A stretch of DNA of 64,000 nucleotides from positions 1 through 64,000 of the forward strand of contig DXGQ01000010.1 of the NCBI GenBank assembly GCA_019113845.1, written 5' to 3'. This document shows positions 27,574-39,352 of the stretch, one piece after another (position 1 is the first letter of the stretch; every line of letters starts with the position of its first letter). The notes beneath the pieces were generated by a model. That model was not told the origin of the DNA, did not search any database, and saw only the letters and a list, made by a program, of their open reading frames with translations. A program made the translations under genes and the position numbers. Source of the DNA: Candidatus Anaerobutyricum avicola (GTDB lineage: Bacteria > Bacillota > Clostridia > Lachnospirales > Lachnospiraceae).

Positions 27574-27588
27574 CATGGAGAAAAGAGT

Positions 27589-27635
27589 TTGAAGGTGAAC
27601 TTTCAATCTACCATTATGGACGCAGGAAATGTGTC
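27589..27635 (+). promoter_or_regulatory. Two-hairpin leader motif, copy 1
   Basis: Hairpin 1 pairs 27589-27595 with 27600-27606 around a TGAA loop. After a 12-base linker (TCTACCATTATG), hairpin 2 pairs GACGCA (27619-27624) with TGTGTC (27630-27635) around GGAAA. The ribosome-binding site and ATG of the ACT gene follow 12 bases later. A near-identical element with compensatory G-U/A-U and G-U/G-C changes stands in front of the PTS gene at 37075-37123. Confidence 0.65.
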
Positions 27636-27647
27636 AGGAAAGGAAAT

Positions 27648-27923
27648 ATGATGAAAAAGACGATTATCACTGTACTGGGCAAAGATTCCGTGGGAATCAT
27701 CGCAAAGGTATGTACGTATCTGGCAAATAATAAGATCAATATCCTGGATATCAATCAGACGATCACCGGAGGATATTTTAACATGATGATGATAGTGGAG
27801 TCCGATGAGATTCACAAGACATTTCCGGATATGGCCATGGAACTGGAACAGATCGGGGAAGAGATCGGCGTGCGGATTCAGGCACAGCACGCAGAGATCT
27901 TTGAGATGATGCACCGCATCTGA
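27648..27923 (+). CDS. ACT domain-containing protein (UPF0237)
   Basis: The 91-residue protein is a single ACT domain ([27 protein letters not shown], with NILDINQTI). Such domains bind amino acids or other small ligands. It is the UPF0237 type, related to GcvR, that nearly always precedes a UPF0210 gene, as here. Two ATGs lie side by side (27648 and 27651) after AGGAAAGGA. The conserved two-hairpin element lies directly in front of the ribosome-binding site. Confidence 0.92.
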
Positions 27924-37040: not shown

Positions 37041-37074
37041 ACAATAACACAGATAACTCAAGCAGAGGAGAAAG

Positions 37075-37123
37075 TTTGAAAGTAAACTTTCAAATCTGCC
37101 AGGATTGACGCAGGAAATGCGTC
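37075..37123 (+). promoter_or_regulatory. Two-hairpin leader motif, copy 2
   Basis: Hairpin 1 is 8 bp (37075-37082 with 37087-37094) with a TAAA loop, followed by a 12-base linker (TCTGCCAGGATT) and hairpin 2 GACGCA/TGCGTC (37107-37112 with 37118-37123) with loop GGAAA. It ends 15 bases before the PTS start. See the copy at 27589-27635. Confidence 0.65.
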
Positions 37124-37138
37124 GGGGAAGGAGAGAAA

Positions 37139-39352
37139 ATGAAGAACACAAAGATTTTGGCTCCGGTAAAAGGAAAAGTCATCCCTCTGGAGCAGGTCCC
37201 GGATGAGGTCTTTGCAGAGAAAGTCCTCGGAGACGGCGTTGCCATTATTCCGGAGGACGGAAAGATTTACAGTCCGGTGGACGGAACCATCACAACGATC
37301 ACCGATTCTCTGCATGCCTATGGATTTGAGACAGAGGACGGCATCCAGATGATCGTGCATTTTGGACTGGAGACGGTGAATCTCAAAGGAAAAGGTTTTA
37401 CTTCCAGGGTGAAAGTGGGAGATAAGGTGAAGGCCGGCGATCTGGTGGCAGAGGTGGATCTGGATTATCTGAAAGAGAACCATGTGGAGACGATCACACC
37501 GGTGATCGTCTGCGGCGGCATCCCGTATGATGAGCTGATGTTCCAGTACGGGGAGACGGAGGCAAGAGAAGTGCTGATCCGGACAAAAGAAGCGCCGCAG
37601 GCGGCAGAACCGGCAGCCGGAGCCACTCAGACAAAGAGCACAAAGACGGTAAAAGAAAATAAAGAGGTTGCAAAAGAGACGAAAAAGAGAGAAGATAAGG
37701 GAGAACAGAAAGCAAAGAAAAAGTTACCGATCAATTTTGACTTTTTGCAGAAGCTTGGAAAGGTATTGATGACCGTCATCGCCGTGATGCCGGCGGCCGG
37801 GCTGATGATCAGTATCGGAAATCTGATCGTGATCGTGGGCGGCGATGTATCCGCCGTGACGACCTTCGGTACGACGGTGGCGGAGATCGGCTGGGGAATC
37901 ATCAACAACCTGCACATCCTGTTTGCGGCGGCCATCGGCGGTTCCTGGGCGAAGGAACGGGCTGGCGGAGCTTTCGCGGCAGTGATTGCCTTTTGTCTTA
38001 TCAATGTCATCACCGGAGCGGTGCTCGGCGTGAGCAGCGATATGCTGGCTGACCCGAACGCTGTCACCCACACACTTTTTGGTCAGGAAATCCTGGTCGC
38101 TGACTACTTTGTAGATATCCTGGGCAAACCGGCACTGAACATGGGTGTGTTTGTCGGTATCATCTCCGGTTTTGTGGGAGCCAACGCCTACAATAAATAT
38201 TATAACTTCCGGAAGCTGCCGGACGCGTTATCCTTCTTTAATGGAAAACGTTTCGTGCCGCTGGTCGTTATTTTCTATTCCGCTGTCACCGCTGTGATCC
38301 TGAGTGTGATCTGGCCGGTGGTACAGACGGGAATCAACAACTTCGGTATCTGGATCGCCAATTCTTCCGATATCTCGCCAATCCTGGCGCCGTTTGTATA
38401 CGGAACGCTGGAACGTCTGCTGCTGCCGTTCGGTCTGCATCATATGCTGACGATTCCAATGAACTACACCTCTTTCGGAGGAACTTACACGATTCTCACA
38501 GGCGCCAATGCCGGAACGCAGGTGTTCGGACAGGACCCGCTCTGGCTCGCCTGGGTAACGGATCTGATCAACTTAAAGGACGCCGGAGATATGGCGGCAT
38601 ACCAGCACTTACTGACAACCGTGACTCCTGCCCGCTTCAAAGTCGGACAGATGATCGGCGCGACCGGACTGCTTCTCGGTATCGCCCTGGCCATGTTCCG
38701 GAGAGTAGAGCCTGCAAGAAAGAAACAGTACAAATCCATCTTTTTCTCTACGGTGGCTGCTGTCTTCTTAACAGGTGTTACGGAGCCGTTGGAGTTTATG
38801 TTCATGTTCGCGGCACTGCCATTATACGTGATCTACGCCGTGTTACAGGGATGCGCCTTTGCCATGGCGGGTATCATCGACCTGCGGTTACATTCCTTCG
38901 GTAATCTGGAGTTTATCACGAGAATCCCGATGTCCATCAAGGCCGGACTTGGCGGCGACATCATCAACTTCCTGATCTGCGTGGTCGTGTTCTTTGTCAT
39001 CGGCTACTTTGTCGCCTACTTTATGATCGGCAAGTTTAAATATGCGACGCCGGGACGCCTCGGAAACTACATGGAAGAAGAGGAAGAAGGCGGCGGCAAT
39101 GCCGCGACCGGACAGGGCAGTGAGAAGGCGGAACGCATCATCGCCCTCCTTGGAGGAAGAGAAAATATCACGCTGGTCGACGCCTGCATGACGAGACTCC
39201 GTGTGACCGTCAAAGATGTGGATAAGGTGGCTGACCTTCCGGCATGGAAGGCAGAAGGAGCCATGGGTCTGATCAAAAAGGATAACGGCATCCAGGCCGT
39301 GTACGGGCCAAAAGCCGATGTGCTGAAATCGGATATCAACGATATCTTATGA
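37139..39352 (+). CDS. PTS glucose/maltose-type transporter, EIIA-EIIC-EIIB
   Basis: The 737-residue protein imports and phosphorylates sugar. The N-terminal EIIA domain (1-150) carries the phospho-His motif MIVHFGLETV (His 74). A charged Lys/Glu linker (150-195) leads to the EIIC membrane domain (about 200-630, around ten segments; GLHHMLTIPMNY, EPLEFMFMF). The C-terminal EIIB domain has the phospho-Cys in VDACMTRLRV (Cys 683). The A-C-B order and its neighbours (EEP phosphatase, MalQ, phosphorylase) suggest a maltose-type MalT transporter; glucose cannot be excluded. GGAAGGAG precedes the ATG. Confidence 0.9.
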   Translation: MKNTKILAPVKGKVIPLEQVPDEVFAEKVLGDGVAIIPEDGKIYSPVDGTITTITDSLHAYGFETEDGIQMIVHFGLETVNLKGKGFTSRVKVGDKVKAGDLVAEVDLDYLKENHVETITPVIVCGGIPYDELMFQYGETEAREVLIRTKEAPQAAEPAAGATQTKSTKTVKENKEVAKETKKREDKGEQKAKKKLPINFDFLQKLGKVLMTVIAVMPAAGLMISIGNLIVIVGGDVSAVTTFGTTVAEIGWGIINNLHILFAAAIGGSWAKERAGGAFAAVIAFCLINVITGAVLGVSSDMLADPNAVTHTLFGQEILVADYFVDILGKPALNMGVFVGIISGFVGANAYNKYYNFRKLPDALSFFNGKRFVPLVVIFYSAVTAVILSVIWPVVQTGINNFGIWIANSSDISPILAPFVYGTLERLLLPFGLHHMLTIPMNYTSFGGTYTILTGANAGTQVFGQDPLWLAWVTDLINLKDAGDMAAYQHLLTTVTPARFKVGQMIGATGLLLGIALAMFRRVEPARKKQYKSIFFSTVAAVFLTGVTEPLEFMFMFAALPLYVIYAVLQGCAFAMAGIIDLRLHSFGNLEFITRIPMSIKAGLGGDIINFLICVVVFFVIGYFVAYFMIGKFKYATPGRLGNYMEEEEEGGGNAATGQGSEKAERIIALLGGRENITLVDACMTRLRVTVKDVDKVADLPAWKAEGAMGLIKKDNGIQAVYGPKADVLKSDINDIL

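Follow-up and report, generated by a model that had tools for sequence, protein, structure and literature searches.

A two-hairpin repeat with its own Shine-Dalgarno sequence before start codons of Candidatus Anaerobutyricum avicola: a probable mobile element

Two short leaders of the same layout, each made of two hairpins followed by a Shine-Dalgarno (SD) sequence and an ATG, stand in front of an ACT-domain gene and a PTS gene in a 64,000-nucleotide stretch of DNA from Candidatus Anaerobutyricum avicola (contig DXGQ01000010.1, positions 1 to 64,000; hereafter the window). Why should two unrelated genes share such a leader? The original prediction, which had described both copies, offered a structured RNA or protein-binding leader that controls translation or, as its alternative, a small mobile element delivering one. 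From the comparison of copies, relatives and insertion sites given below, we consider it probable (roughly 80%) that the leader is a non-autonomous mobile DNA repeat that targets start codons and whose own SD replaces the old one on insertion.

The two leaders and their family in the genome

Both leaders lie on the forward strand, and sequence and folding bear out their description as a matching pair. In copy 1, hairpin 1 (27589-27606, TTGAAGG/TGAA/CTTTCAA; one base fewer than in most copies) and hairpin 2 (27619-27635, GACGCA/GGAAA/TGTGTC) are recognised from sequence, folding and covariation, and are separated by a linker (27607-27618) whose TCTRCC motif is conserved in the alignments described below. 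In copy 2, hairpin 1 (37075-37094, TTTGAAAG/TAAA/CTTTCAAA) and hairpin 2 (37107-37123, GACGCA/GGAAA/TGCGTC) are recognised from sequence and from folding as RNA and as single-stranded DNA. Downstream of copy 1 follow an SD at 27637-27645, placed from the sequence and from profile columns 58-69, and the ATG at 27651-27653 that opens the ACT-domain gene, a start codon conserved in close sister species (Pfam ACT_6). Downstream of copy 2, the sequence has an SD at 37126-37133 and an ATG at 37139-37141, the start codon of a PTS EIIABC gene. RNA folding z-scores were -2.42 for copy 1 and -4.67 for copy 2; as single-stranded DNA, the family consensus scored -6.45, copy 2 -4.41 and copy 1, which does not fold well, -0.75.

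To see how far this pair extends, a covariance model (R1) was built from the two window copies only and searched against the 2.87 Mb genome. It found 46 places at E<1e-4 and a 47th at 0.0036, giving 47 copies at E<0.01, with E-values that are rough and two source copies that match by construction. The best other place in the window scored 16 bits with the covariance model, against 98-102 for the two copies, and the likeness of the two is more than chance. All 47 places are listed as spanning the R1 model, some with most of hairpin 1 lost. No two are identical, and a recent jump is therefore not evident in this species.

Copies were compared in three alignments: A2 (the 47 copies of this genome), A3 (73 copies: these 47, 25 from four sister species and one from a metagenome contig) and A4 (76 matches, the majority of them from 14 other genera). 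The consensus unit, GTTTGAAAGTGAACTTTCAAATCTACCATTATTGACGCAGTAAATGCGTCAGGAAAGGAGAAA, is about 61-63 nt long and runs from GTTTG to GGAGAAA, two ends that are not inverted repeats of each other. Its left flank is free except for AA (82-85%); on the right, ATG comes after two bases that are fairly free, and it occupies fixed columns in 45 of the 47 own copies, 71/73 of A3 and 72/76 of A4. It is replaced or displaced in L031 (TTG) and L030 (three bases nearer) of this genome and, within A4, in L233 (ATA), L227 (AGG), L228 (two bases nearer) and the inner tandem junction of L229 (CTG). Applied to the window, these boundaries retain the hairpin coordinates of the original prediction and replace its ends, which had missed the functional limits of the element: the unit begins at GTTTG and stops two bases short of the ATG, at 27587-27648 in copy 1 (GTTTG...AAATA; R1/R2 model matches 27581-27654) and at 37074-37136 in copy 2 (63 nt, GTTTG...AGA; R1/R2 match 37068-37142).

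The prediction had also held that the differences between the two stems keep pairing, and the larger alignments agree. Changes on both sides that preserve pairing were found for 9/13 pairs in A2, 10/13 in A3 and all 13 in A4. Paired cells made up 94.5%, 95.0% and 95.8%, respectively, a level reached by none of 500 shuffles and falling to 20-54% in slid controls; the alignments were fitted to the model, which biases them toward the structure, and related copies were counted separately. RNAalifold applied to A4 returned the same two hairpins with 11 pairs. Judged by eye, hairpin 1 is kept with its sequence replaced in three own copies (L043, L047, L037), and one copy from another genome (G438) has a hairpin 2 of entirely different sequence. 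The TCTRCC motif (27607-27612 and 37095-37101 in the window) is kept in divergent versions of the unit while the adjoining stems change, and no partner was found for it.

Filled and empty sites at gene starts

If the unit is mobile, relatives should show the same gene starts with and without it. Copy 1 lies among a metallo-beta-lactamase gene, the ACT gene and a DUF711 gene, whose order is kept across much of the genus. The displayed sister species lack the unit at this site: G014, G009, G021 and G008 have ATGGAGG 7-9 bases upstream of the ACT start codon, and the corresponding ATGGAG stands at 27575-27580 in the window, stranded upstream of copy 1. The sequence ATGGAGGAAATATTATA-ATGAAAAAG of G014 appears in this genome as ATGGAGAAAAGA-[unit]-TG-ATGAAAAAG. 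The copy 2 site is likewise empty in G021 and G009, which have ATGGAGGAAAGAAA-ATG and ATGGAGGAGAGCAA-ATG; the old SD (GAGGAG) stands at 37065-37070, upstream of the unit.

Sites of 46 of the 47 copies (all but L020) were queried in sister species, and 36 of them found a match while 10 did not. Thirty-three of the matched sites are empty in all displayed relatives; two (L023, L028) hold a unit in G009 but none in G021, and the match at one (L030) is partial and uninformative. The sites of L038 and L044 are empty in G021 and G009 and filled in G014, where the L020 site is filled as well. With well-conserved flanks, filled and empty sites differ by the unit alone, which sits two bases upstream of the ATG with neither duplication nor loss, as in the exact insertions L004 (GGAGGCAGAA^CTATG), L023 (GGATAA^AAATG) and L028 (GAGTGAGAG^AAATG); at several sites scored as empty, among them L015, L016, L031 and L032, the flanks are too changed for an exact junction. 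A typical empty site has the old SD next to the ATG, and in this genome the unit lies between the two. Because the spacing between cut and ATG is almost constant and that between the old SD and the ATG varies among sites, it is the ATG that sets the position.

By our own reading of the open reading frames, which is not an annotation, 39 of the 47 copies stand before a start codon, seven do not (L015, L016, L026, L029, L030, L032, L034) and one (L031) is unclear. Because this minority precedes an ATG that is not a start, the ATG itself seems to be part of the target. Two of the seven are intergenic (L015, L016). L029 lies between a stop codon and a terminator-like repeat behind it, and G021 and G009, in which this site is empty, have an ATGATAA there too; L032 is flanked by an HPr-like gene (by eye) and a terminator-like stem that contains the ATG; and the ATG of L026 falls within the apparent SD of the downstream gene. 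L032 and L034 (both around 1501-1575 of their loci) directly follow the stop codons of an HPr-like and a deoC-like gene (by eye), and their ATG opens no long frame.

With greedy gene calls, AANNATG occurs in the window at 5 starts, at 23 other noncoding places and at 148 coding ones. Since AANNATG alone would give more non-start sites than are found, either purine-rich SD sequence is also read or other insertions have been purged. An SD-like motif occurs among the 17 bases that precede the unit in 46/57 start-codon copies, 2/10 non-start copies and 4/6 unclear ones, against a background of 28.5% in random windows upstream of own copies.

The genes hit are unrelated, as had been claimed for the ACT-domain and PTS genes of the window. 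The ten target proteins scanned match thymidylate synthase, TsaD, GreA, RsmI, threonine ammonia-lyase, D-aminoacyl-tRNA deacylase, the biotin carboxyl carrier protein (AccB), MscS, the NAD(P)H-hydrate repair enzyme and an RluA-type synthase.

Distribution among relatives, and two host-centred alternatives

Among 24 genomes of the genus, the R2 model found copies in five, this one included (47, 10, 9, 5 and 1), and none in the other 19; no copy was found in the 37 genomes of other genera in the same draw. Of 397 genomes drawn from the family (334 genera), 15 gave matches, namely this genome and 14 in 14 other genera, with copy counts that are lower bounds since at most 12 places were scored per genome, and a class-wide draw with the R3 model gave matches in 2/391 (this genome and G074), both of the same family. 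Elsewhere in the family the occurrences are sporadic and the copies divergent. No match to the repeat was found in phages, in plasmids or, by pattern search, in viral contigs.

Only 5 of the 25 sister copies occupy sites that are also filled in this genome (L049/L020, L057/L023, L061/L044, L064/L038 and L068/L028), three of them among the five copies of G014; G009 and G021 have three sites in common. These shared sites indicate that the distribution is inherited in part, while most sites are not shared, and copies do not stand consistently before orthologous or functionally related genes. At one position (L050 and L051, around 1501-1980), the sequences of G009 and G021 agree at every base through the copy and for at least 403 bases downstream, far above the likeness of genes between this species and its sisters, which suggests a recent transfer between the two. 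A consensus copy was also met in a pattern scan of named genomes at L071:3118-3192, on a 3.5 kb contig (CALXJA010000027.1) binned as Emergencia; the contig may be mis-binned, or the copy may be a sign of transfer.

This distribution bears on the first alternative, a cis-regulatory RNA leader whose two hairpins and TCTRCC motif would bind a protein or ligand and jointly control the translation of a set of genes, its spread having built a regulon. Such a reading would account for the compensatory changes, for the retention of hairpin 1 where its sequence is replaced, for the constancy of TCTRCC across divergent versions and for the SD at the end of nearly all copies. Compensatory change is also seen, by eye, at a site shared between this species and G014 (L038 and L064), where such upkeep of structure may hint at a role for the host. 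However, the target genes are unrelated, few sister copies sit at sites shared with this genome, some copies do not precede a gene start and several have lost hairpin 1.

Two specific regulatory mechanisms were rejected. Sequestration of the SD by the linker rested on a TCTRCC-GGAGA pairing that appears in single minimum-energy folds (copy 2 and the consensus), and shuffled linker/tail combinations do no worse: across 120 of 125 parsed copies (five badly parsed ones dropped), the mean linker/tail duplex energy was -3.12 kcal/mol for real and -3.19 for shuffled pairs, with 266/300 shuffles as good or better, and for 44 of the 47 own copies the values were -2.90 and -2.96. Control by CsrA through the GGA of the hairpin 2 loop was likewise discarded: the second base of this loop varies freely, its neighbours much less, and 63 of the 73 copies have T or C there; in addition, the genome has no CsrA family match, which speaks against CsrA alone. 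In Rfam 15, no family matched the window at gathering score, and permissive scans of the two leaders (E<=10) returned only chance-level matches, in keeping with the earlier statement that no named motif fits. Overall, we regard a regulatory leader as an unlikely explanation of the family.

Complete units occur in other genera too, and the copies within G173, G242 and G287 are near-identical. A left-end pattern marks 31 places in G173 and 14 in G242; all 30 of these 45 that were inspected are complete units, most of them before an ATG that opens a frame (L263 and L268 have ATA or GTG instead, and in L258 the ATG lies three bases further). In G173 and G287, some units follow one another head to tail at a spacing of 63 nt, and the left end of the second unit (GT-TTG, GT-ATG or GT-CTG) then falls exactly at the NN-ATG position. 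Some units in G287 (L205, L213) and G438 (L208) start with GT-ATG and can be read without a stop, in frame, as far as the following ATG. Such units could lengthen the protein by about 21 residues or undergo tandem translation.

That the unit itself begins like a start codon raises a second alternative, in which the stranded SD would start translation at the GT-TTG (or GT-ATG) of the unit, a short peptide would be made and the gene would be reached by re-initiation. The old SD does keep start-codon spacing to the NN-TTG/ATG at the start of the unit, the frame ends in many own copies at a TGA just before hairpin 2, and in the G287 and G438 units it is open into the gene. Yet the peptide shows no conservation: its second codon goes from AAA to GAA in the most frequent covarying change, further codons differ among copies, those with TATGGAC lose the stop, and the length from TTG to ATG is 61 or 63 by subfamily and thus differs modulo 3. 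We therefore rejected the leader peptide, which we hold to be very improbable.

Taken together, the many copies, the mostly empty orthologous sites, the precise insertion, the patchy occurrence in sister species and the tandems in two other genera favour the mobile element that had been put forward as the alternative. The search for further copies with a covariance model, which the original prediction had proposed, brought out 47 in the genome, most of them before start codons and with both hairpins covarying, rather than two solitary copies or scattered ones without covariation.

How the repeat may move, and what it would mean

The sequences show repeated, precise insertion in a single orientation, two bases upstream of an ATG (consensus AA^NNATG), mostly in the spacer between SD and start codon; the unit brings two covarying hairpins, the TCTRCC linker and an SD at the 3' end (GGAGAA or GAGGAA). 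The old SD is left stranded upstream and the gene is presumably read from the new one, and insertions at gene starts would for this reason be tolerated. We infer further that the two ends are joined at some stage, in a circle or at a tandem junction (GGAGAAA-GTTTG), and that this joint resembles an SD, a spacer and a start. A trans-acting enzyme working on folded DNA would then recombine the joint with sites that resemble it, chiefly gene starts; the hairpins would be needed for recombination and, together with TCTRCC, would be the features the enzyme recognises, as folded DNA or RNA.

A search of this genome, with comparison of candidate Y1 and IS110-type genes, found no mobilising enzyme. 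Nor was a longer, autonomous copy met among the 18 left ends found by pattern in this genome, all of them complete units, or in the 30 inspected places of G173 and G242; G287 had no match to the left-end pattern.

As a special case of the mobile repeat rather than its opposite, the unit could be a MITE- or PATE-like offshoot of an IS200/IS605 (Y1 HUH) transposon that moves in single-stranded form. IS200/IS605 elements and PATEs have hairpins at their ends, make no target duplication and insert precisely and in a fixed orientation beside a short target, and in the IS200/IS605 family the two cleavage sites resemble each other. The present unit likewise inserts in a fixed orientation and duplicates no target sequence; it has a hairpin close to either end, and its empty sites are precise. 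The bottom-strand target, CATNN, and the 3' end of the element itself, CAWAC, would resemble each other as the cleavage sites of that family do. The target, in contrast, is gene starts, two bases before the ATG. Moreover, the occurrence of Y1 genes does not follow that of the repeat: G014 (89% complete) gave no Y1 match despite its five copies, and G003, G005 and G018 lack the repeat but have 6-7 Y1 matches. Hairpin 1 directly adjoins the cut, which leaves no room for a guide at its foot; CATTATT, tried as a guide against AANNATG, suits units of the own type and fails in G242-type units, where the complementarity is missing. The one PF01797 match in this genome is an IS605-type TnpA adjoining a TnpB-like frame, and it was dismissed as the driver since the ends of its element are unlike those of the unit (by eye). 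We consider such a derivation rather unlikely, but likelier than a regulatory leader.

Other known systems share single features with the mobile repeat proposed here. Integron attC sites are folded, single-stranded recombination sites with a GTTRRRY core, found in tandem cassettes arrayed at one attI; the present unit is similar in its tandems and folding, but it is dispersed, carries no gene and has no GTTRRRY core that we could see. REPs and REPINs with RAYT are small dispersed hairpin pairs, thought to be moved as single-stranded DNA by an enzyme acting in trans, and REP sequences are extragenic and do not target start codons. The present unit is likewise a dispersed hairpin pair (for REPINs and RAYT see PMC3116915), and the sole Y1-family match in the genome is the IS605-type TnpA. 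BOX, RUP and SPRITE of Streptococcus pneumoniae are described as short, multi-copy and structure-forming repeats with MITE-like features, thin in or absent from related species and over-represented between convergent genes, and BOX and RUP have terminal inverted repeats and target duplications (PMC3049150). The present unit resembles them in being short, multi-copy, structured and thin in relatives; it differs from BOX and RUP in having neither terminal inverted repeats nor target duplication, and from all three in standing mostly at start codons with an SD. IS110/IS1111 elements, guided by a seekRNA, are described as carrying a DEDD transposase and a non-coding region of significant length (PMC11187229). 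Specific target sites are a common trait, whereas the IS110-type gene adjoining L031 is unlike the ends of the unit. This transposase gene (by eye) lies at L162:420-1680, directly downstream of L031 and behind a 16-codon frame; it was rejected as the driver, and GTTTGAAA at the junction is ascribed to the TTG start.

Searches of an open-licence library found no description of such a repeat. It is about an even chance, in our judgement, that the family represents an undescribed class of bacterial mobile element that targets the translation start region, with joined ends that mimic SD, spacer and start and an undescribed enzyme acting on the folded hairpins; its insertion would exchange the ribosome-binding site and leave the gene readable.

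Insertion before essential genes is usually harmful, and a start-codon repeat that brings a new ribosome-binding site with it would clearly exemplify an element that neutralises its own insertion. If the proposed reading is true, the translation signals of thymidylate synthase, GreA, TsaD, AccB and others have been swapped in one species, a difference that is measurable. The precise target (AA^NNATG) and the hairpins would make a new recombination enzyme searchable, and possibly provide a tool for short insertions at gene starts. For this species, the repeat would amount to a natural rewriting of the translation signals of dozens of housekeeping genes.
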